64,000 nucleotides of DNA, taken from positions 53,891,408 to 53,955,407 of the forward strand of contig OY829329.1 of assembly GCA_963691655.1 (NCBI GenBank), given 5' to 3'. The translations under genes were made by a program, and so were the position numbers. The notes under the pieces are model-generated. The model was not told the origin of the DNA. It did no database searches and was given only the letters and a program-made list of their open reading frames with translations. Below, in pieces: positions 3,601 through 64,000 of the stretch (position 1 is its first letter; the number at the start of each line of letters is the position of its first letter). The stretch comes from Toxonevra muliebris. Lineage: Eukaryota > Arthropoda > Insecta > Diptera > Pallopteridae.

Positions 3601-3942
3601 ATTATCCAACACTTATCCAATCCTTATCCAATCCTTATCCAGTCCTTATCCAATCCTTATCCAATCCTTATCCAATCCTTATAAAATCCTTATTCAATCC
3701 TTATCCAATCCTTATTCAATCCTTATCCAATCCTTATCCAATCCTTATCCAATCCTTATCCAATCCTTATCCAATCCTTATCCAATCCTTATCCAATCCT
3801 TATCCAATCCTTATCCAATCCTTATCCAATCCTTATCCAATCCTTATCCAATCCTTATCCAATCCTTATCCAATCCTTATCCAATCCTTATCCAATCCTT
3901 ATCCAATCCTTATCCAATTCTTATCCAATCTTTATCCAATCC
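3601..3942. repeat. 11-bp satellite array (CCTTATCCAAT)n, block 1
   Basis: About 31 tandem units of CCTTATCCAAT with few point variants. The array is interrupted at 3943 by a SINE and resumes at 4251. Because 11 is not a multiple of 3, translation gives a periodic peptide pattern that is an artefact. Confidence 0.95.
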
Positions 3943-4250
3943 GACCTCGATAGCCTAGTGGATAGTGCACTAGACTTTCATCTGGGAGGTTCGGGTTCGA
4001 TTCCCGTCTTCGTCTGGTAGTTAATTTTCATACCTTTCTTATATTCACTATCAATATGAAGTGTATGAGAATTATAAGATAGTGTACAAGTACACACATT
4101 GGTTGGTAATGGCAAAACCACCAAGCCGATAAAAAATTGCCACACCGCCGTTCGGAATCGGCGTTAAACTGTAGGTCCAACTATGTGGTATCACAATGGG
4201 CCGTTCAGGCCTAAGTGTGTCTCTCGACAGCCACTCCAACCTAACCTAAC
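3943..4250 (+). mobile_element. tRNA-derived SINE, copy 1, inserted in the 11-bp satellite
   Basis: The head is a tRNA-like sequence with RNA polymerase III box A (TAGCCTAGTGG, 3951-3961) and a perfect box B (GGTTCGATTCC, 3994-4004). The anticodon-loop region CTTTCAT and the flanking arms most resemble tRNA-Glu(TTC); this is inference from the pattern. The body (about 4015-4165) has no tRNA similarity. The last ~80 bp carry GTGGTATCACAATGG, CTAAGTGTG and GCCACTCCAACCTAACC, which match the 3' end of the LINE at 20420-21252. It sits between two parts of one satellite, so the insertion is clear. The target duplication cannot be resolved because the flanks are repetitive. A second copy lies at 24972-25273. 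Confidence 0.9.
3951..4004 (+). promoter_or_regulatory. Internal pol III promoter (box A and box B) of SINE copy 1
   Basis: Box A is TAGCCTAGTGG at 3951-3961 and box B is GGTTCGATTCC at 3994-4004. The 32-bp spacing between them is normal for a type 2 pol III promoter. This would drive transcription of the SINE; the element is not a functional tRNA because the acceptor stem does not close. Confidence 0.8.
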
Positions 4251-4353
4251 CTTATCCAATCTTTATCCAATCTTTATCCAATCCTTATCAATCCTTATCC
4301 AATCCTTATCCAATGCTTATACAATCCTTATACAATCCTTATCTAATCCTTAT
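4251..4353. repeat. 11-bp satellite array, continuation after SINE
   Basis: The same CCTTATCCAAT unit resumes directly after the SINE tail for about nine units, then degenerates (TATACAATCC, TATCTAATCC) into unique sequence. Confidence 0.9.
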
Positions 4354-5336
4354 CTCGAATTATAGTTCACTTAACTGACATTTTTAAAAGTTAGTTACAA
4401 CTAGTTTAAAGCTTATTTTAATTTGTATTCCATAATTGAATCATCTACAACTTATTGCACTACAATAACTTGAAGCACTTTTAAATAACTCTCACACATT
4501 TAAAATGTTGCTAGCAATTCAATTTTGTCAAGCACAAAAAATACACATTTTGAAGTTGAAGTTTTCCGACAATATTTTTTTGCACGATTTTTGTCATTTC
4601 GAATTTACAAAACAGTTGCATTTGCTCTGTTTTCTCTGTGGAGGTGTATACAAATTTAGTTGAGCAATTTGTTGCAATTGTATTTTTGGGAATGATGTGG
4701 AAAATGTCAAAATTGTAGCAATGTAGTTTGGGAAAACATAATAAAACAATTACAACAGAAACTTGAACACCGATGTCTTAAATTGTTGTAATGAAAATTG
4801 CGATTGCTCAAAGGGGTAAAAACAATTGTTGGAAGCAACTTTAACTATTGCGAATTGCATGGAAAAAGCGAACAGATTTCTAGTAACTTTCATTCAAATC
4901 AAATAGTTACTTATCCCAAGACAGTGAACAGCTTTTTTGAAGTATACTATTTTCTTACTTTCAATTTTCTTACTTGTTGTATAGTTTTTGTGGATTATTT
5001 ATATAATTTGTCTGCGAGCTCAAAAGTAAGCAATGTTTATTTTTGCCTACATAAGTATACTTTTAACTATATATCGATGTATATTTTTCATTTGCATCAT
5101 AGGCTTGATGCAAAATAATCATATCAAATGCTGCTTCAATTGTAATAACTACAAAGTTGCGACACATAATATGCTACAAATTCACTTCAACTGCTACAAA
5201 TATACAGCCTCATACAGTCTAAAACTATGCCACTTTAGAAAGTTTTTCATTACCGAAATTGTGATAAATATAAATGAGACAGTGAACGAAAACTAACAAG
5301 GGCACAAGATCTTGTGTATTTATACAAAAATAAATA
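4354..5336. other. A+T-rich non-coding DNA
   Basis: No gene recognised. The open frame around 4798-5118 is cysteine- and tyrosine-rich low-complexity translation and resembles no protein I know. Confidence 0.5.
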
Positions 5337-6278: not shown

Positions 6279-7382
6279 CATCCAATTCTTATCCAATCCT
6301 TATGCAATCCTTATTCAATCTTTATCCAATCCTTATCCAATCCTTATCCAATCATTATCCAATCCTTATACAATCCTTATCCAATCCTTATCTAATCATT
6401 ATTCAATCCTCATCCAATCCTTATCCAATCATTTTTCAATCCTTATCCAATCCTCATCCAATCCTTATCCAATCCTTATCCAATCCTTATCTAATCCTTA
6501 TCCAATCCTTATCTAATCCTTATCCAATCCTTATCCAATCCTTATCCAATCCTTATCTAATCCTTATCCAATCCTTATTCAATCCTTATCCAATCCTTAT
6601 CCAATCCTAATCCAATCCTTATCCAATCCTTATCCAATCCTTATCCAATCTTTATCCAATCCTTATCCAATCCTTATCCAATCCTTATCCAATCCTTATT
6701 CAATCCTTATCCAATCCTTATCCAATCCTAATCCAATCCTTATCCAATCCTTATCCAATCCTTATCCAATCCTTATCCAATCCTTATCCAATCTTTATCC
6801 AATCCTAATCCAATCCTTATCCAATCCTTATCCAATCCTTATCCAATCCTTATCCAATCCTTATCCAATCCTTATCCAATCCTTATCCAATCCTTATCCA
6901 ATATTAATCTAATCCTTATCCAATCCTTATTCAATTCTTATCCAATCCTTATCCAATCCTAATCCAATCCTTATCCAATCCTTATCCAATCCTTATCCAA
7001 TCCTTATCCAATCCTTATCCAATCCTTATCCAATCCTTATCCAATCCTTATCCAATCCTTATCCAATCCTTATCCAATCCTTATCCAATCCTTATCCAAT
7101 CCTTATCTAATCTTTATCCAATCCTTATTCAATCCTTATCCAATCCTTATCCAATCCTAATCCAATCCTTATTCAATCCTTATCCAATCCTTTTCCAATC
7201 CTTAGCCAATTCTTATCCAATTCTTATCCAATTCTTATCCAATCCTTATCCAATCCTTATCCAATCCTTATCCAATCCTAATCCAATCCTTATCCAATCC
7301 TTATCCAATCTTTATCCAATACTTATCCAATCCTTCCCCAATCATTATCCAATATGTATCTAATCCTTATCCAATCCTTACT
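6279..7382. repeat. 11-bp satellite array (CCTTATCCAAT)n, block 2, about 100 units
   Basis: The same unit as at 3601-4353, tandem for 1.1 kb with point variants (CCTAATCCAAT, CCTTATTCAAT). The TTATTC variant falls at 6311, 6399, 6575, 6696, 6927 and 7125. The spacings are 88, 264, 121, 231 and 198 bp, all exact multiples of 11, so the register is unbroken. The last four start the same ~44-bp variant string, which points to segmental duplication inside the array. Confidence 0.95.
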
Positions 7383-13201: not shown

Positions 13202-13966
13202 GTTAGGTTGGAGTGGCAGCCTTCTGCTTGAAAGCACACTTAAGCACATTTAGACTCATTGTGATACCACAGTACGGCGCTACTCCCCCATTTACGGATT
13301 GGAGAACCATGGGGATTCCATAATGAATCTGGCTATGTCCTTAATATTTACAGATGATAGCTCGGACAGACTAGTGAAGAAAGGTGAGCCCAGGAGTTTT
13401 AGTCTCCTCCTGGCCAGGGATGGGCATTCGCACATGAAATGGAGGTTTGTTTCTTCCTCCTCCTCAGAGCCGCAGCCCCGACAGAAGTCATTGAATGGCA
13501 GTCCTAGTCGTGCAGCATGTCTCCCCATTATGCAGTGACCCGTGAGCACCGAAGTCGTAATACTGATGGAGTTTCTGCTAAGGTTGAGTAGCTGTCTAGT
13601 TTGTCTATTGTCAATAGTGGTCCATGTTAGCCTGGTAATACCACAGGTATGCTCCGCTACCCAGGATCTTTTTGCTTTCTCAAGGTAGTTTTGCTTAATG
13701 GCTAATTTAATAGATGTAAGAGGGACACCAATTGTGCAGGAAGGTGATATATCTGTAAGCTGCGAGCCCTGTTTTGCTAACTCGTCGGCATTGCAGTTAC
13801 CTGAAATATCCATATGTCCAGGCACCCAATGTAGGTGGACCTGCGAGTGACTCGACAAAATGTTGAGTGCAGATCGGCAGTCGAGAACAAGCTTTGATGT
13901 AGTAAAAACACCGCCAAGGGACTTGATTGTTGCTTGGCTGTCCGTGTAGATGCAGATATTCTTATC
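13202..13966 (-). mobile_element. 5'-truncated non-LTR retrotransposon (LINE family 1), copy A
   Basis: A 765-bp LINE 3' end on the minus strand, flanked by a perfect 12-bp target duplication AATAGTGTGTAT (13190-13201 and 13967-13978). It starts just upstream of the RNase H motif YTDSQATIKSL and ends in ...GCCACTCCAACCTAACA. The open frame from about 13966 to its stop at 13292 carries HWVPGHMDISG with NADELAKQG, then a zinc-knuckle-like C-x2-C-x10-H-x4-C (CRGCGSEEEEETNLHFMCEC). The first ~26 codons of the longer open frame beginning at 14044 come from flanking DNA, not from the LINE. It is nearly identical in protein to copy B at 20420-21252, which implies recent movement. Confidence 0.93.
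13292..13966 (-). pseudogene. C-terminal part of LINE ORF2: RNase H and cysteine-rich tail (copy A)
   Basis: This is a remnant of the polyprotein that in complete elements carries endonuclease, reverse transcriptase and RNase H. RNase H removes the RNA strand during target-primed reverse transcription. Visible here are the third catalytic Asp (TDSQATIKSL), the conserved His (WVPGH) and the final Asp (NADELAKQG). The first catalytic Asp and the Glu are missing because of 5' truncation, so the domain cannot be active. The frame is otherwise open to the natural stop. The RNase H plus C-terminal CCHC arrangement fits the I/R1/LOA-type groups; I cannot place it more finely. Confidence 0.88.
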
Positions 13967-14322
13967 AATAGTGTGTATAAACATCACCAAAGTTGAGAAA
14001 AGGCGAAAAAAGTGGAAAAAATTGTGTTTGCTAGACAAATACACACATATTTCTCAAGTTTTCTTAAAAGTTTATTATTATTATTTATTATCTCTAAGTT
14101 TATTTTTCCTAAAACCGGCAGGAAACTGAAAATCTATTGATAATCAACTAAGTTACAAGTTTATAAATGCGCAAAGGTACGTAAAACCGGGTTTTTAACG
14201 GTGAATCAAGATTTTGGGGATTTTTGGAAAATTTCACATACAGACTCTTGTTTTACTCGACAAGACCTACAAGAAAAATCATATCACTTCCCAGGTATTT
14301 TTTACTGTCACACCGTGTATCG

Positions 14323-20419: not shown

Positions 20420-21252
20420 GGCGGAAGTAATGGCTATCTATCAAGCGTCCAAGTGGCTTATTCGCAATGATTCATTCGATAAGAATATCTGCATCTACAC
20501 GGACAGCCAAGCAGCAATCAAGTCCCTTGCCGGTGTTTTCACTACATCAAAGCTTGTTCTCGACTGCCGATCTTCACTCAACATTTTGTCGAGTCACTCG
20601 CAGGTCCACCTACATTGGGTGCCTGGACATATGGATATTTCAGGTAACTGCAATGCCGACGAGTTAGCAAAACAGGGCTCGCAGCTTACAGATATATCAC
20701 CTTCCTGCACAATTGGTGTCCCTCTTACATCTATTAAATTAGCCATTAAGCAAAACTACCTTGAGAAAGCAAAAAGATCCTGGGTAGCGGAGCATACCTG
20801 TGGTATTACCAGGCTAACATGGACCACTATGAACAATAGACGAACTAGACAGCTACTCAACCTTAGCAGAAACTCCATCAGCATTACGACTTCGGTGCTC
20901 ACGGGACACTGCATAATGGCGAGACATGCTGCACGACTAGGACTGCCATTCAATGACTTCTGTCGGGGCTGCAGCTCTGAGGAGGAGGAAGAAACAGTCC
21001 TCCATTTCATGTGCGAATGCCCACCCCCGACCAGGAGGAGACTAAAACTCCTGGGTTCACCTTTCTTCACTAGTCTGTCCGAGCTATCATCCGTAAATAT
21101 TAAGGACATAGCCAGATTCATTATGGAATCTTCATGGTTCTCCAATCCGTAAATGGGGGAGTCGCGCCGTACTGTGGTATCACAATGAACCTAAATGTGC
21201 TTAAGTGTGCTTTCAAGCAGAAGGCTGCCACTCCAACCTAACCTAACCTATA
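20420..21252 (+). mobile_element. 5'-truncated non-LTR retrotransposon (LINE family 1), copy B
   Basis: It starts at the RNase H catalytic Glu codon (AEVMAI at 20421) and ends in the pentamer tail CCAACCTAACCTAACCTA. The 3' untranslated part (21153-21252) contains GTGGTATCACAATG, CTAAGTGTG-like strings and GCCACTCCAACC, shared with the SINEs at 3943 and 24972. It lies inside a Tc1 transposase gene. Possible short target repeats (ATCTTTT near 20412 and 21259) are imperfect. Confidence 0.92.
20430..21152 (+). pseudogene. C-terminal part of LINE ORF2: RNase H and cysteine-rich tail (copy B)
   Basis: A 240-residue open frame. The RNase H part has the catalytic Glu just before the first Met (AEVM), the Asp in YTDSQAAIKSL at about residue 25, WVPGHMDISG at about 63-72 and NADELAKQG at about 75-83. 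The C-terminal part has CRGCSSEEEEETVLHFMCEC (C-x2-C-x10-H-x4-C) and ends ESSWFSNP. The first RNase H Asp and all of the reverse transcriptase and endonuclease are missing. The Met at 20430 is simply the first in the remaining frame, not a natural start. It differs from copy A at only a small number of residues and has no internal stop, consistent with young age. In full elements this domain digests RNA after reverse transcription. Confidence 0.9.
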
Positions 21253-23803: not shown

Positions 23804-24829
23804 TGAGTGAAGAAAAAGAAGTACGTCTTAAAATTATTAAAAATTTTCAAAAAAATTATTATTGTCATGACTAGTGTTTTAAATGTAAAAGATTGTATAA
23901 TCTTATAACACTGGGATGTACCTTATAATTAATTAAAAAAAATAAAATTGGCCAAGGAATTGAAGGTCTGCCGTCAAATTGTTTCCAATGTTATTAAACA
24001 TTTTCAGGAGAATTTGACCATCGATAGGAAACCTGGTTCGGGAAGAAAACAAGGACCACATGATATTGGGAAAGCCAAGAAAATAGAAAGCATATTGAAA
24101 AGATCTCCAAACACATCTGGTAAAAAAGCTGCCCGGTTAGCCCAGTGCTCTGACTACATACAAAGTCCAAAAAGTTCCAGACAGGAATGCTGCAAAAAAT
24201 TTAGACGCCAAAAGTAGGGCTCGGAAATTAAAATCGGATTTCATACAAAAATATTCATGTTGTATAATGGACGACGAAACGTATGTACTGGCAGATGTTA
24301 CGCAACTTCCGGGTCAAAATTTTTATGCTTCTGATGCGGGAGGAAATGTCGAAGAACAATTTAGAATCCAAAAGCAGACAAAATTTCCTAAAAAATTCCT
24401 GGTATGGCAAGCTATATGCAGTTGCGGCAAAAGAAGCAAGTCATTTGTTACAGTGGGCCAAAAAATACCGAAATATACATCAAAAAATGTTTGAAAAAAA
24501 GTTTTCTTCCTTTCCTAAGAGAGCACCGATTTTGGACCGATTTGGCATCATGTCACTAAGGCAAGAAAGCTCTGGAGTGGTACCAAAGTAATAACATAGT
24601 TTTTGTACCAAGAGAGGCCAATCCTCCAAATTGTCCGGAGCTAAGACCAGTGGAGAGATATTGGGCTCTTGTGAAAAGAAACTTAAAGAGCACAAAAAAG
24701 GTGTCCCAAAATATCGAAGATTTTAAAAGGAGATGGGCAAACTGTTCCAAAAAGGTGTCTGAAACAACTATCAAATCTCTAATGGAAGGCTTACCAAAAA
24801 AGGTCCATGAGTCTATAAATAGTGGTTAG
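23804..24829 (+). pseudogene. mariner transposase, degenerate
   Basis: The frame begins MSEEKEVRLKII at 23804, breaks, resumes at 23948 (AKELKVCRQIVSNVIKHF and GSGRKQGP, a helix-turn-helix and GRPR-like region) and breaks again. The catalytic part starts MDDETYV at 24267 (first Asp), followed by KFLVWQAIC. The second Asp is in FWTDLAS near 24540. The Glu is in CPELRPVERYW near 24648. The frame ends at the stop at 24827-24829. Reading through one stop I count 37 residues between the second Asp and the Glu, that is DD37E spacing. Several frameshifts and stops mean it is inactive. In life this enzyme would cut at the CATAA inverted repeats and insert at TA. Confidence 0.85.
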
Positions 24830-29210: not shown

Positions 29211-30420
29211 GAGCATTATATCCACTAGTACTATAGTTCCACAATAAATGTCTTGTTATTTTGCTTGTTTTAGTGGTTAAGCTGACATTTCGTACCAATT
29301 ACGATTACTTTATTGTTGAAAATTCATTATTTTTGGTTTTGGATAAAATTAATTTTCGGATAAAATTTATCCGTTTTATCCGGTTACGATAAAAAAATGT
29401 TTTGAAAGGTAAAACAACACTTAAAGCAGTAATAATTGAAAAAATTGTCAACTTTTTCAGTGTTTAAAAAAATAATATAATACTGAGTATGTACTAGTTA
29501 AATTCCTGTTGTTTGTTGATAATGATGCGTGTGAGTGAATTGAAGCTAGAAAAATTTTCTAATTCAAAAGTTGCATAGTAAATATGTCTCCGCTTTGCTT
29601 CTTTTAGCGGTTAAGGAGCCAAATCCTTACAATTACGCCTGCTTTATTGCTGAAAATTGATTATTTTTGGTTTCGGATAAAATTTAATGTTCGGATAAAA
29701 TTTATCCATTTTATCCGGTTACGATAAAAAAATGTTTTGAAGAAGAAAACAGCACTTAGAGCAGTAATAATTGAAAAAATTGTCAACTTTTTCAGTGTTT
29801 AAAAAAATAATATAATACTGAGTATGTACTAGTTAAATTCCTGTTGTTTGTTGATAATGATGCGTGTGAGTGAATTGAAGCTAGAAAAATTTTCTAATTC
29901 AAAAGTTGCATAGTAAATATGTCTCCGCTTTGCTTCTTTTAGCGGTTAAGGAGCCAAATCCTTACAATTACGCCTGCTTTATTGCTGAAAATTGATTATT
30001 TTTGGTTTCGGATAAATTTTATCCGGTTACGAAAAAAAATGTTTTGAAGAAGAAAACAGCACTTAGAGCAGTAATAATTGAAAAAATTGTCAACTTTTTC
30101 AGTGTTTAAAAAAATAATATAGTACTGAGTATGTACTAGTTAAATTCCTGTTGTTTGTTGATAATGATGCGTGTGAGTGAGTTGAAGCTAGAAAATTTCT
30201 CTGGTTCAAAAGTTGCACAGTAAATGTGTCTACGTTTGCTTGTTTTAGCGGTTAAGGTGCCAAATCCTTACAATTACGCCTGCTTTCTTGTTGGAAATTC
30301 ATTATTTTTGGTTTTGGATAAAATTTAATTTTCGGATCAAATTTATCCGTTTTATCCGGTTATGAACAAAACTGTTTTTGAACATTCAAAAAACATTATA
30401 AATAATAATAAATAAAAATA
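29211..30420. repeat. Tandem repeat of about 335 bp, about 3.5 units
   Basis: The marker TAG(C/T)GGTTAA falls at 29271, 29605, 29940 and 30246, giving periods of 334, 335 and 306 bp. The shorter period reflects a deletion at about 30008-30026. Each unit has GCTTTATTG(C/T)TGAAAATT, a double CGGATAAAAT motif ending TTTTATCCGGTTA, AGCAGTAATAATTGAAAAAA, and GATGCGTGTGAGTGA. Units 2 and 3 are almost identical, so the tandem expansion is recent. Single fragments of the unit occur at 9322, 18965 and 27617. Confidence 0.92.
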
Positions 30421-38700: not shown

Positions 38701-39411
38701 TTGTGAGCAGAACATAGCAGAGATATTTTACTCTTTAACAATTGCATGTGCTAAAAGATCGAGAATATTCAGTATATTTGAAAACAAATACCAACACTGA
38801 ACTCTAATAATGCGAGAACACTAACGGAGTACAACGAAAGTTTGAACTAAGCCTCAATAAAATTTATGGGATTAGTCAAAATTGACCACCACATGCTGGT
38901 TTGTTTTTTGTCTTTTTAAAACAAAACAATTAAGAGAGGACAAGAGATTCTTTAAAACCTCTAATGGCTATAAATATGTCAGCAAAAATCCCAACTTTTC
39001 CGTACTTCAAACTAGTTCCATTAGTACTGCTTCCATTAGACACTTCAGACTCCTCAGACATTTCAGACTCCTGGCAAAAATTGTGTGTACTTTGATTTTC
39101 AAATATTTCATTCATACAAAAAGTACAATGTAAAATTGATATTTTTGTAATGTTATTTTTAATGTAAAAATAAAAATGTTAGTTTCATGTCAAATTATAA
39201 TGTTAAAATTACATTTCGTAATGTCAATTTTGATATTTTTTCATGTTGGCTGAATATTGTAAACAAAAAATGTTATTTTTACAGCTTTTTCACGTACTTT
39301 TTTTTTGAGTGTATTTCCACTAGAAGTAGCTGAGTTAAAAATATCTTTACTTTTAGGTAACAAGGAATTTAGTTCGGGCTGATGTTGTACAATTGATTAC
39401 TGATCTCTATG

Positions 39412-39570
39412 CAAATCTGTAATTCTGGGTTATGATTTCAAATATTAGTAGCTTATATAGGATATTGAAAGATTAAGAACTATCACTAAGATCACTGATG
39501 AGGGATCGTGGCGGATTCCGAAACGGCCGTCTGATTTGCCCGTCTCTGTATACACTGTTGTTGTGATGAC
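39412..39570 (+). repeat. 159-bp hammerhead-bearing repeat, copy 1
   Basis: It matches 63321-63479 base for base over 159 bp with no indel and fewer than ten substitutions. Homology begins at CAAATC and stops after GTTGTTGTGATGAC. The ribozyme core is in the right half. No open frame and no flanking target duplication are visible. It could be a short retroposon or a fragment of a larger retroelement such as a Penelope-like element or a retrozyme; I cannot tell which. Confidence 0.9.
39482..39567 (+). ncRNA. Type I hammerhead self-cleaving ribozyme, copy 1
   Basis: All conserved elements are present in order. Stem I 5' strand AGATCA (39489-39494). Core CTGATGA (39495-39501). Stem II GGGATC (39502-39507) pairs fully with GATTCC (39514-39519, one G-U) around a GTGGCG loop. 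Then GAA (39520-39522), and stem III ACGGCCGT (39523-39530). The cleavage base is C39531 and the stem I 3' strand is TGATTT (39532-39537). Predicted self-cleavage is between 39531 and 39532. Stem I may extend through ATCAC (39482-39486) with GTGAT (39563-39567). Stem III is self-complementary with almost no loop. In known type I hammerheads of this kind, such short stem III versions often act as dimers or in tandem RNAs; for this element that is inference. Confidence 0.88.
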
Positions 39571-39917
39571 GTTCCTTAAGCCTGTCATACATTACCTAAA
39601 TCTCTATGCTTTTTGTTCAGTTAGGCGGAAGGAAGAATTTCCTCGAAATTATAATAAAATAAAATAAAAGATTCAATAATATATTAAAAATCTCCTTTAT
39701 ATAAAACTTCGAAAGACACTCACTGCCATTAATGACTGACAGTAGTGTTTCATTTTTCCTGAATTTTTCAATTGCTCCCATTTATTTTGTTTGGAGCAAC
39801 CAAACCAACTACATTACGACAATCATACGCAAAAGCAAAAGATACCAAACCATTCTCGAAGCAAATGAAATCAAAGTTTTACAAGAGATTTCGCTTTTCC
39901 ATACACACTCGCACACA

Positions 39918-44997: not shown

Positions 44998-45700
44998 ATT
45001 GTATTGTATTATATTGTACTATATTATAGAGGTTTCTGTCGTTGTACCGCGACCTATAAGATCTATTGTACGTCCCTCTTTTCTATCTTGTCTAATCTGC
45101 CTAGAGTACCTTATCCAGTCCAGTCTCCCTCAAGAATTTGAGTTTTGCGCAAGGATCTATTGATGCTAGTTCGGTACTGGGCACTTGGTGCACGCCCAGA
45201 CATTTCCTTCTTTTGTGGATCAGTGCTCCACATTGAGCTAAGATATGTTCTGATGATTCGTCTTCCTCATTACAAAACCTACAAATTGAGCTTTGCTCAA
45301 CCCCTATCTTGCAAAGGTGTTCTCTGAGCCCGCAATGCCCAGTCAGAATACCAGCGAATATGCGCAAACTGTTTGTTTGTTGAGACCAACGCAGAATGCG
45401 TATCTACTCTTATTATAATTACCTAAAAGCGCTTTGGATTGCCTCAGTCCCGTAAGATTGGTAAAGAGTTCTTGCCTCTTGTTCCTCTCTTCTTGCCTGA
45501 GTAACTCCCTGATTACGCTATCTCCTATTCCACAGAAGGGTTCAGGTCCCACGACAGTGGTTGCTACCCCCTTTCTTGCAAGCTCGTCTGCCTGCTCATT
45601 ACCCTCAATTCCTGCGTGTCCGGGGACCCAACATAGAGCGACTTCGTTGTTTTTGCCCAGTTGATTGAGCTTGCTCAAACAGTCCCACGCCAAATTAGAG
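44998..45700 (-). mobile_element. 5'-truncated non-LTR retrotransposon (LINE family 2), copy C
   Basis: On the minus strand it ends in a pentamer tail; the plus strand reads TGTATTGTATTGTATTATATTG at the left edge. It then contains ACCGCGACCTATAAGATCTA, shared with copy D at 54991. Coding remnants on the minus strand carry the RNase H end (WVPGHAGIEGNEQADELARK) and CRFCNEEDESSEHILAQC (C-x2-C-x8-H-x4-C). The 5' break is near 45700. No target duplication is clear. Confidence 0.88.
45101..45693 (-). pseudogene. C-terminal remnant of LINE ORF2 (copy C), frameshifted
   Basis: There are two overlapping frames: 45693-45343 (RNase H C-terminal part with GHAGIEGNEQADELA, then a helical stretch) and 45367-45101 (GILTGHCGLREHLCKIG, the CCHC knuckle, then FLRETGLD before the stop). 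The frameshift near 45360 separates them. The RNase H active-site Asp and Glu residues upstream are lost. Copy D (55091-55996) is the same family but longer, with about the same C-terminus. Confidence 0.85.
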
Positions 45701-48420
45701 GATCATAACATCATCTTATTCAGATTCTTACAACTTCGAGACGGACTCTGCGATAATATGAAATTTAATAATATAACAGGCGCAAAAAATGGAGTACAGA
45801 AAATCATCTTTCTAATTTCTTAACGATTTTAGGATCAGGGAAAAGTTTCACTCAAATAAAACATTCGGACAATTATTCGAATCGATTTCGAACCTTCGTA
45901 TGTAACCTATCACTTGCGTTCTCTCCTGATTAATCGTTTAGAACTCTTCCCAGCGAATGACTTTTGGACGGGAGACTCGCAAGTGAGACAAATGAATCGC
46001 AGATTAATCTTCCACTATCGGAAATTAACCAACAAGCGTAACTTCAAAAATATTAATTTGCACAAACTTTTTTCCATTGGTATAGATATCACTGCTGTCG
46101 CTATTACAAAGCATAAATCCTACGCGATGTTCCCTCCCTCATCTGGCAACTCTTTTTCTCTCACTCTCTTTTTATTACTTTTATGCCTTTGTGTAATAAA
46201 GACGTGAATTTTCTGCATTTTCGCAGATTTTGTAAATTTTCTGTGAATTTCAAAATATATTTTCTTAGCGATTTGTTTTTGTGCTTTTTACTACTTTAAC
46301 TTTACTTGGATTTGGTTTGGTTGGATTTTTAAAAGTAAAACCACACCCCAGTAGCGTCAAAGTTTTCTAGATTTTTTTTTTGGATTGGTAAGGATAAAAA
46401 TTTACATATCCACACACATATCACACATATGCTTTTTGAAGTGGCATCAGTTGCATTTCTTTATTTTACATGTGAACACACACACACACGCACGCATACA
46501 TAAAGTAATCCCCAGTTAATTGTCCTCTTTATATTTGTGTATCGACGCTAGAAATATTATGTTTTTAGTTTAAACTATACTAAAATTGCTCGGTTAACTG
46601 CATTCCGCGGTTAATTGAACCAGATGTTGTACATTTTCATTGAAGTACTTAAGCAGGGACTACTGTTCATACATTGCAAGAGTGCATTTATGAAAACCAC
46701 ATGTAGGTATGCGTTTCTGTGTATGCCTTTTATTCGCTTGTATGCTTGTTGAATTATTATAAAAGAATCCTTTTGAGCAATATTTATGCTCCTTTTATTG
46801 TAGTGTGTGAGTGTGTGAAAAAGAATTTTCTCATGGCTTATGAGTATATGTTGTGGTTGTTGGTTGTTGATGAAAAAAAAGCACAATACAAACTGTGAAG
46901 AACTAAGAATAATTTTCTTAAATTATTAAATCAATTAAACCGAAAAATTTAATAACTTATATTCATAATTTAATTTTAAAATTGAGTTGAATCACATCTA
47001 AAGGAAAAATATGAAAAATTATAGCATAATTTCAATGGTTTAATTTTCATCTCAATTTTCGTAGCCACCACTGTAATTTTTGTTTGTATGAAACGAGACC
47101 GCATTCATTTAATACTTGGTCTTGTCTGTTTATTTCTTTCATGCACATTGTAGTAGAAAATTTGTAGAGAAAAGGAAACGTTTTACTGCATCAAAGAATT
47201 TAATCTAAATTTCTCAAGAAAACGGGAAAAGCAAGGATATTTTATAAGCGACGCTGCAGACAGAAAAAACAACAAAAAGACGTACACGAATAGACATAAA
47301 CTTAGAACAAATACATATGTATATTTGTATAGTTATACCAGATATCTGCATGCATAAATATATGAATACTAAGACCAAATGGCCAGATATATGTACACAA
47401 ACATTTACCAAGACATGTTATTACACACACATACCATTTACACAAATGCATGCAAACATATTTATATGCATATTTTTGCCACCTGTTGTCTGTCTATCTA
47501 AACGTCCGTCTGTAAAATTTCCTTACATTTGTATGTCTACTTGCACATATAAATCACAACGACACACACACATTACCCAGTATAAAAGACCAAGAAATAT
47601 ATTACGTACATATAGATTTTGCTATTGCTGCACTGATGTCATCATTCTTTGATGACGATGTTGATGATTATTAGAATGATCATAGAGATGTTAATGCGTA
47701 CAATCAAGTATAATAAAGAGACCATGTCCCTTTTGTATTTGGCTGTGTGTATTTGAGTGACTGAGTGTGTAGTAAAGAACAAGACAAATGGAAAATTAAT
47801 TTGCTTTTTCTAAAGTTAAATATAGGACGGTTCCCTGTGCCTAGTCTTCCCAATGGTCATCCTATTTTGCGCGTTCCACAACCATGTGAGATAGAGAGTC
47901 TCGTTATAGGGAACCAGCCACATTATCTGAAACCTCACTTGGTATCAAATATAGTGAATACGTCAGTCCCGATTGTCATTGCGTAGTTCATATCGGTCAT
48001 TGTCGTTTGGAAGGTATTTTTGACAACTTTATAATCGACGAAGAGGAGGTGAGCGTCCATCCAAGATATGACAATGAGTGAGTATCTGGTCAATGTTACT
48101 TACTGAGCCCGTATTAACACTTGTTGAAAAAAGTTATTTTTCATTTGATCTGTAGGCAGGCATTTTTATTGCTGTTAATGCAGTATTCTAGGGGCTTGGG
48201 ATGGAGAATATATGGTTAAGTCTGTGACAACCTTACTAACGAGCTAGGTCAAAGGTCTCAAGCCTCGGATAGGTTTCAGTACATTAAGAGCTTGCTGCTG
48301 AGCTGCTACTATACAACCTACCCCTTCTCTTCGGGAAATATAATCGCAACAGGGGACAGAGAATATTCAAAAGAAATGGCAGCAATCAGAAAAAAGGTAC
48401 TTTTAGGTTTTGCAACAAAA
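45701..48420. other. Mostly A+T-rich non-coding DNA with unplaced more complex sequence
   Basis: Segments 45715-46150 and 47765-48400 are less simple than their surroundings, and an open frame at 47765-47986 contains GRFPVPSLPNGHP. I recognise no protein family, and no repeat partner elsewhere in the window. CA-type microsatellites lie near 46482-46500. Confidence 0.4.
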
Positions 48421-54990: not shown

Positions 54991-56060
54991 TGTGTATTGT
55001 ATTGTATTGTATTAGTGAGGTTTATATATATTTATACCGCGACCTATAAGATCTATTGTACGTCCCTCTTCTCTATCTAGTCTGATTTGCCTAGAGTGCT
55101 TCATCCAGTCCAGTTTCCCTCAAGAATTTGAGTATTGCGCCCGGATCTATTGATGCTAGTTCTGTACTGGGCACTTTGTACATACCCAGATATTTCATTC
55201 TTTTGTGGATCAGTGCTCCACACTGACCTAAGATATGTTCTGATGATTCATCTTCCTCATTACAAAACCTACAAATTGAGCTTTCTTCAACTCCTATTTT
55301 GCAAAGGAATATACGCAGTCTGTTTTTGTTAAGACCAATGCAGAATGCGTATCTATTCTTGTTATAGTTACCTAGAAGCGTTTTGGATTGCCTCAGTCCC
55401 AGAAGATTATTAAAGAGTTCTTGCCTCTTGTTCTTCTCTTCCTGCCTGAGTACTTCCCTGATTACTCTATCTCCTATTCTACAGAAGGGTTCAGGTCCCA
55501 CGAAAGTGGTCGCTGCTCCCTTTCTAGCAGGCTCGTCTGCCTGCTCATTGCCCTCTATTCCTAAGTGTCCAGGAACCCAACATAGGGCGACTTTATTGTC
55601 CTTGCCCGGCTTATTGAACTTGCTCAAACAGTCCCACACTAGTTTAGAGGTGATCTCAGAGGAGCATAATGCTCGAATGGCTGCCTGGCTATCCAACATG
55701 ATAGCGATATTTTGCCGTTGTACTTCCTGAATTGCACCCATATATCGATTGCGTGAATTTCAGCTTGAAAGATGCTGATACTTCCCCATCGGCTCAGAGT
55801 GTTTGATTCTTGGCCCAAATACTAGTGCCCCAGTTCCATCCTTAGTTCGTGACCCATCTGTATACCATTTAATCGTGTGCTCTTTGAGAGTGTAGTTATG
55901 TTCTACACTCTCCCATTCATTCTTACTACTAAGTTTTGCAACAAAGTGTTTCTCAAAACTATACTGTTTGCCCATTCTGTCCTGGGGACAGTCCAAGAGA
56001 TAATTGTCTTTCGCCGGGTTATCTCGGTTTTCAGGCCCTATAGACCAAAATTATGGGTAA
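54991..56060 (-). mobile_element. 5'-truncated non-LTR retrotransposon (LINE family 2), copy D
   Basis: On the minus strand, same family as 44998-45700 but longer. The 3' tail is a pentamer repeat (plus strand TGTATTGTATTGTATTGTATT at the left edge), preceded by ACCGCGACCTATAAGATCTA. Coding remnants reach back past the RNase H start to NPAKDNYLLDCPQDRMGKQ near 55990-56030. The exact 5' break is uncertain. Confidence 0.88.
55091..55996 (-). pseudogene. LINE ORF2 C-terminal remnant with RNase H (copy D)
   Basis: Two in-order frames on the minus strand. 55996-55760 has IKWYTDGSRTKDGTGALVFG, the first RNase H Asp. Between the frames FQAEIHAI holds the catalytic Glu but is preceded by a stop. 55741-55091 has MLDSQAAIRAL (third Asp) and WVPGHLGIEGNEQADEPARK (His and last Asp). 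It then has CRFCNEEDESSEHILGQC (C-x2-C-x8-H-x4-C) and ends FLRETGLDEAL. RNase H degrades the RNA template in reverse transcription. The in-frame stop and the missing reverse transcriptase make it inactive. The order RNase H then CCHC matches family 1, but the sequence is clearly a different family. Confidence 0.87.
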
Positions 56061-63278: not shown

Positions 63279-63320
63279 AAAAGAACAACAACATAAGTGT
63301 ATAGTGAAGATATTTGGAAT

Positions 63321-63479
63321 CAAATCCGTAATTCTGGGTTATGATTTCAAATATTAGTAGCTTATATAGGATATTGAAAGATTAAGAACTATCACTAAGA
63401 TCGCTGATGAGGAATCGTGGCGGACTCCGAAACGGCCGTCTGATTTGCCAGTCTCTATATACATTGTTGTTGTGATGAC
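63321..63479 (+). repeat. 159-bp hammerhead-bearing repeat, copy 2
   Basis: Same start (CAAATC) and end (GTTGTGATGAC) as 39412-39570, equal length, a handful of substitutions. It is on the same strand, about 24 kb away, in unrelated flanking sequence, so it is a mobile or retroposed unit. Confidence 0.9.
63391..63476 (+). ncRNA. Type I hammerhead self-cleaving ribozyme, copy 2
   Basis: Stem I 5' AGATCG (63398-63403). Core CTGATGA (63404-63410). Stem II GGAATC (63411-63416) with GACTCC (63423-63428), loop GTGGCG. Then GAA (63429-63431), and stem III ACGGCCGT (63432-63439). Cleavage base C63440; stem I 3' TGATTT (63441-63446). Compared with copy 1 the stem II G-U pair becomes A-U (pairing kept), the next A-U pair becomes A-C (weakened), and the stem I closing A-U becomes G-U. 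Every catalytic-core base is unchanged. Predicted cleavage is between 63440 and 63441. Confidence 0.86.
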
Positions 63480-63527
63480 TATATTTGTTCATTAACCTGT
63501 TTATATATAACTTCAAATAACGAAATT

Positions 63528-63605
63528 GACATGAACTTAAGTCATGACTTTGAAAATTAACCTAGATTTAGAATTAGATTTAATTTTCATAGTCTCCTAA
63601 AAAAA
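63528..63605 (+). repeat. Short dispersed repeat, copy 3
   Basis: GACATGAACTTAAGTCATGA, TTTGAAAATTAACC, then a small internal duplication (TAGATTTAGAATTAGATTTA) and ATTTTCATAGTCTCCTAAAA. Shared with 42711-42763 and, inverted, 52476-52540. Confidence 0.65.
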
Positions 63606-64000
63606 TAATTATTATCGTTGATCGAAAAAAATTAATATGACAAAATAATTATTGAATTAAGATTTCGTTGAGAAAGTAGAATATAGAATCCAAAACGATT
63701 TTTTTTCAAACTTTCCTTCAACATTTTCGCATATTTGATTCCAATATTTCTGTATTTTATCAAAGTGAAACTTGTTGAATTTACGTCAATTTTTTTTTAG
63801 AGTAAAGTATATTAATTTTAAAATTAACTCACTATTGAAACCGAAACATTTTTTCTACAAATATCAGTTCAAAGTTTACGCACTTTCGACCAAAATATAT
63901 CCATATTGAATCGAAGCAAAATTTCTTTAATCTAGGTTAATATTTTCTTGAGTGTTCAAGATGTACCTAAGTGTTTCACAGTTTTCCACAATTTCTTAAA
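63606..64000. other. A+T-rich non-coding DNA
   Basis: No gene or paired repeat recognised to the end of the window. Confidence 0.5.

Follow-up and report, generated by a model that had tools for sequence, protein, structure and literature searches.

What kind of element carries the hammerhead-like motif in this stretch of fly DNA, and is the motif a genuine ribozyme? Hammerhead ribozymes (HHRs) are known in animal retrozymes and Penelope-like elements (PLEs). We know of no settled account of the role of the HHR in the life cycle of either, or of the enzyme that moves retrozymes. The analysis covers the window, meaning the whole stretch of 64,000 nucleotides, together with the genome (491 Mb, 96 contigs). 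The sequence is probably a type I HHR on a non-autonomous retroelement of ~490 bp, with the reverse transcriptase (RT) of a resident PLE as likely helper in trans. We assign this reading a probability of about 0.6 on the basis of copy number, covariation, and insertion anatomy. The HHR is most likely genuine, and it is highly probable that a hammerhead has been maintained in the source elements.

Read letter by letter from the window, the type I core at 39489-39537 (+) is complete: all invariant core bases are present, and the three helices are arranged as in type I hammerheads (Table 1). The first-pass annotation had described a complete type I hammerhead here, and all of the letters it named are where it placed them. 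A descriptor requiring CUGANGA, stem II, GAA(A), stem III with 2 bp or more and an A-U closing pair, H17, and stem I matches the 64-kb window solely in two copies of one repeat. In its strict form, which demands 6 bp in both stem I and stem II, the descriptor is matched in 2 of 7,808 random 64-kb Markov windows. Matches rise to 30 of 7,808 when a stem II of at least 3 bp suffices, and the looser descriptor is found in 40 of 4,096 dinucleotide shuffles of the window.

Table 1. Coordinates of the element copies and of their predicted hammerhead parts (positions of the window)
Feature	Position	Strand	Basis
Left copy of 10-bp direct repeat ATCTCTATGC, probable target-site duplication	39403..39412	+	
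Copy 1 of HHR element, 5'-truncated	39413..39599	+	homology to 39 other genome copies; 3' end in main 3'-end class
HHR stem I 5' strand, AGATCA	39489..39494	+	sequence read; RF00163 alignment
HHR core CUGAUGA (DNA CTGATGA)	39495..39501	+	sequence read; RF00163 alignment
Short open frame, 22 codons, AUG inside CUGAUGA; possibly a relic; no Pfam match	39498..39563	+	
HHR stem II GGGATC/GATTCC (39502-39507 with 39514-39519), loop GUGGCG	39502..39519	+	sequence read; RF00163 alignment; compensatory change in subfamily 2
HHR core GAA	39520..39522	+	sequence read; RF00163 alignment
HHR stem III, 8-nt palindrome ACGGCCGT (RNA ACGGCCGU; subfamily 2, ACGAUCGU)	39523..39530	+	sequence read; subfamily comparison
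C17, predicted cleavage between 39531 and 39532	39531..39531	+	position from RF00163 alignment
HHR stem I 3' strand, TGATTT	39532..39537	+	sequence read; RF00163 alignment
Right copy of 10-bp direct repeat ATCTCTATGC	39600..39609	+	
Copy 2 of HHR element, reaching second 3'-end class	63303..63607	+	
HHR of copy 2, with an A-C mismatch in stem II; cleavage predicted after 63440	63398..63446	+	

The two window copies are 95.6% identical over 159 nt (39412-39570 and 63321-63479). The 159-bp unit proposed earlier is a fragment of a larger element, as junctions and aligned genome copies reveal; tail-to-head junctions in L049/L083, L050, L051, L060, L061, L064, and L065 set the length at ~490 bp. 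A tandem 159-bp satellite is ruled out, as the unit is longer and the window copies are dispersed. In the genome, the 30-nt core occurs at 3,871 sites with up to 3 mismatches and the exact 35-nt core at 185, and the reversed control of each search gives 0. A 171-base query finds at least 41 matches (40 scored of 1,533 first-look candidates). Forty genome places were aligned, copy 1 itself among them, and the HHR frame is kept in 34 of the 39 other copies, which were chosen by similarity and are therefore biased towards the window copy. Among 17 loci of 3-5 kb, L052 alone holds two core motifs, 1,194 nt apart and one of them altered in stem III. Tail-to-head junctions exist, but none of the examined loci showed an array with its HHRs spaced by one unit. 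Exact element patterns find 0 relatives outside the genome in viral_contigs and genome_contigs, and the element may already be catalogued in a repeat library. One locus (L004, 112-1400) carries a ~1.29-kb insertion-like stretch with 32-bp inverted ends and, by eye, a mariner-like minus-strand frame, apparently within an HHR element copy.

A second subfamily, with at least 42 matches (among 1,911 first-look candidates), came to light through a diverged copy in L075. CTGANGA stands upstream of the GAAA anchor in 14 of 20 subfamily 2 places, with the anchor set off in L142 and L156. Other sequence replaces the left half in L138 and L152, the core is altered in L144, L145, and L150, and L146 retains CTGANGA by eye with the anchor missing. 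One identical HHR is common to L139, L147, and L154. Compared with the HHR of L002, a copy from the first subfamily, that of L139 differs at 7 of 49 positions, and all 14 pairs and every core base are kept. The changes comprise a two-sided T-A to C-G replacement in stem II, G-U to G-C in stem I, two substitutions in loop II, and another two at the centre of stem III, whose sequence remains palindromic (ACGGCCGT to ACGATCGT). In 200,000 trials, 7 random changes preserve the pairs and core in 0.07% of cases, or in 0.02% if the dimer palindrome is also required; this test was devised after the sequences had been seen and is a single comparison of two lineages. The sequence flanking the HHR is ~58-71% identical between the subfamilies, with agreement in 30 of 42 aligned columns upstream (L139 and L002) and 97 of 166 downstream (L075 and L002). 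The earlier proposal, a fly repeat with a hammerhead of the PLE or retrozyme kind, is supported by thousands of genome copies and by a structure kept between two diverged subfamilies.

The ends of the copies bear on how the element moves. In 66 distinct copies, 3' ends fall at reference positions 392-403 (27 copies), 476-490 (23), or elsewhere (16), and 5' starts are scattered over 1-275; the count includes solely copies covering the HHR, hence starts past 300 could not appear. The reference is one actual copy (L039), and chance matches may shift ends by a few bases. Counted from the AUG within CUGAUGA, the first 3'-end class spans +108 to +119 and peaks at +114 (9 copies). Flank repeats, scored as the longest word common to a copy's own two flanks, reach at least 9 bp in 8 of the 62 copies with enough flank and at least 7 bp in 22, where swapped flanks lead one to expect 1.0 and 7.4, respectively; a few of the words are A-runs. 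The duplication around copy 1 is probable rather than certain because ATCTCTAT, part of the repeat, also occurs inside longer copies. Copy 2 has no flank repeat of 7 bp or more in this test. An inverted piece of the element lies at or over the 5' side in 7 of 30 exact-core loci (L059, L060, L061, L064, L074, L077, and L084), and in L060 a 14-bp duplication surrounds both inverted and tandem pieces. Target-site duplications, 5' truncation, partial tandems, inverted 5' pieces, and internal 3' ends, all insertion traits of PLEs, are thus present in the element.

PLEs are resident in the same genome. A search for GIY-YIG returns 2 matches (L088 and L089), which we read as one host-like gene and one PLE. 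A PLE RT piece has 148 genome matches, several in open frames of 827-866 codons, so the GIY-YIG family search evidently missed most PLEs. The RT piece also has relatives in other flies. Flanks were read for three PLE families at one locus each. In family A, both flanks contain an HHR-like CTGAGGA...GAAACGCGTA. Family B carries CTGAAGA...GAAACGTT in its 3' flank, with no HHR core found in its 5' stretch, and one copy of family C shows CTGAAGA...GAAATATT in the 3' flank. A head-to-head pair of family C copies, at G000:C3:56000546 (-) and 56003784 (+), has two more motifs of this type between its members, both on the minus strand. The flanking repeats of families A and C end ~144 and ~163 nt past the core start. 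A motif near CGGAGGGCACACCG is common to the PLE families (L131, L132, and L133), with CGGAGAGCACGCCG in family C, and in families A and C it stands immediately beyond the 3' end of the flanking repeat. This motif may correspond to the AC-rich stem-loop at which, according to published work, reverse transcription begins; by eye, the motif was not seen in the HHR element. Separately, L075 (1193-1287, -) contains a non-coding 96-bp stretch that matches, at 82% identity, DNA lying upstream of the L090 PLE frame.

Judging from the sequences, the element looks like a PLE at insertion while carrying no PLE genes, and the likeliest single explanation of its movement is help in trans from a PLE. Transcripts of source copies, probably partly tandem, would contain the HHR. 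The ribozyme may cut these transcripts and so trim multimers, possibly in dimers joined by its palindromic stem III. Small PLE hammerheads are said, in work attributed to Lunse and dated 2017, to act as dimers. An RT supplied in trans, most likely by a resident PLE, would then begin copying at either of two internal sites, ~116 and ~200 nt downstream of the HHR core start, and 5'-truncated copies would be inserted with target-site duplications. Self-cleavage by the element's HHR, and its action as a dimer, are predictions from the motif.

The element resembles HHR-bearing PLEs (PMC11167929; PMC3846280) in its HHR, in a 3' end that lies a favoured distance downstream, and in its target-site duplications, partial tandems, and inverted 5' pieces. 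For Adineta PLEs, PMC3846280 describes flanking repeats in inverted orientation, partial tandems, duplications of 9 and 10 bp, and joins at microhomology. For the Anolis PLE, PMC11167929 places the RT start 111-118 nt into an ORF that begins at HHR stem II, and it describes both insertion without HHR cleavage and protein-assisted cleavage. Unlike PLEs, the element has no RT or endonuclease gene detected in the examined copies, no frame joining RT and GIY-YIG found there, and no homology to the resident flanks read. By eye, its HHR also departs from those of PLEs in its longer stem I (6 bp compared with 3-4 bp) and its 8-nt palindromic stem III.

A strict metazoan non-LTR retrozyme is an unlikely but serious alternative, in which the HHRs of tandem units would release monomers that are circularised and the circle would be copied by a LINE-type or other RT. 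The element shares with retrozymes (PMC7229834) a type I HHR, a short non-coding unit near the published 150-450 bp, low G+C, target-site duplications (here the longer ones), and some direct tail-to-head junctions, and the 6-bp stem I and 8-nt palindromic stem III fit the consensus layout of RF00163. However, unlike these retrozymes, the element is dispersed, mostly single, 5'-truncated, and ~490 bp long, has preferred 3' ends past the HHR, and carries one HHR per copy in nearly all examined loci. Ends beyond the cleavage site mean that those templates were uncut there, and the inverted 5' pieces are a described PLE trait. A similar animal case, likened by description rather than by sequence, is the Schistosoma Sm-alpha HHR repeat (PMC6155905), also a non-autonomous element with a type I HHR.

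Descent from a further PLE family beyond A, B, and C by internal deletion, making the element a PLE by origin and not by mechanism alone, is improbable. The AUG does lie in the HHR core (the Anolis PLE frame begins slightly later, at stem II), the main 3' end at +114 from this AUG falls within the Anolis RT start of 111-118, and PLE matches in the genome are numerous. However, the 0.3-2.4 kb of sequence surrounding each of the copies examined gives no PLE coding match at E up to 0.01. Nor is the element homologous to the PLE flanks read from families A, B, and C, the best match being 43 bp at 72% on the opposite strand. In family A, ~200 nt separate the HHR from the start of the long frame, so an AUG placed as in the element is not general among the PLEs here. 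Since the PLE coding region was looked for and not found, the element is placed among non-autonomous HHR retroelements of the retrozyme kind rather than among PLEs.

A functionless HHR-like motif within an ordinary SINE-like repeat is very improbable, and three lines of evidence speak for it: Rfam scores, folding, and the decay of single copies. The covariance-model search that the first-pass annotation had named as a possible refutation went against it: no Rfam hammerhead scores above cut-off, the best score being 23.8 bits against 34. No Rfam family matches the window at the gathering cut-off, and at E up to 10 there is no hammerhead in the whole window or in the 701 bases around copy 1. On a 221-base stretch, RF00163 gives copy 1 its 23.8 bits (E 0.00089) and copy 2 22.7 bits, and a typical genome copy (L002) also reaches 23.8, all under the same cut-off. 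Ten further element copies scanned together show no hammerhead at E up to 1. The 3' motifs of PLE families A, B, and C are likewise without an Rfam match at E up to 1, a scan that is no fair control of the cut-off, since the ten element copies gave none in a scan of like size, and that is not comparable with the short-stretch scores. Over the whole genome, RF00163 yields 0 matches, but the controls of that search gave no signal anywhere, so this zero carries no information. Because the cut-off is missed, the HHR is claimed by motif and covariation, not by Rfam membership. The predicted folding of the isolated RNA favours another structure (-23.0 kcal/mol, compared with -8.0 for the HHR), and folding z-scores are ordinary.

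Selection on the dispersed copies is not visible in the two places where it was sought. Contig C1 holds 46 sites with an intact 30-mer but not the 35-mer, of which 40 were taken and 2 then set aside for an indel or divergence. In the resulting 38 copies, changes in the GGCCGTC block are even (6, 7, 7, 8, 6, 5, and 8), loop and cleavage-site positions included. Stem I in 70 copies (420 cells) is unchanged in 358, altered yet paired in 13, and broken in 49, with 0 compensatory changes. Even changes without compensation indicate that single copies decay neutrally and that constraint is seen between source lineages only; pairing is kept through sequence change between the subfamilies but not within the dispersed copies. 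A 41-copy column table has loops more variable than stems, but its sample was chosen by similarity, and it is not used as evidence. What argues against a functionless motif is the finding of paired changes and an intact core between diverged subfamilies, together with the great rarity of the motif itself in random sequence.

The last alternative, that the repeat is a retroposed small nucleolar RNA similar to SNORD24, with a D box mimicking the HHR core, can be dismissed for practical purposes. SNORD24 scores 27.9-28.6 bits over both window copies (39423-39502 and 63332-63411, overlapping the 5' half of the HHR), and 5 of 10 further copies score 24.1-28.6 bits. These values are under the cut-off of 41, and across the window they do not rise above background (E 1.2 and 1.8); L002 scores 22.1 bits, and stem II, GAAA, stem III, and the paired changes are left unexplained.

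The non-autonomous HHR element with a PLE helper would stand between metazoan retrozymes and PLEs, probably moved by PLE reverse transcriptase. A bolder form of this idea, tentative though worth considering, is that an HHR retrozyme moved in trans by PLE RT forms the missing link between retrozymes and PLEs, with the covarying palindrome further suggesting a dimeric HHR. With HHR copies dispersed in their thousands, two or more covarying subfamilies, PLE-style scars, and open-frame PLEs, this one fly genome would make both the role of the HHR and the enzyme that moves such elements addressable. Insects are named among hosts of type I retrozyme-like repeats in PMC7229834, and for type III HHRs in PMC7761336. 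By title and abstract, the work found that joins Penelope, hammerhead ribozyme, and Diptera concerns HDV-like RNAs.

The window holds several other repeats. Arrays of an 11-bp tandem repeat (TTATCCAATCC), of up to 100 copies, occupy 3602-3942, 4250-4354, and 6280-7380, and 29260-30327 is a tandem repeat with units of ~335 and ~307 bp. By eye, open stretches at 13292-14053 (-), 20421-21152 (+), 45101-45702 (-), and 55091-55759 (-) resemble LINE RNase H-like ends. Another open stretch, at 24141-24591 (+), is like a frame in L072 and, again by eye, resembles a DNA transposase fragment.
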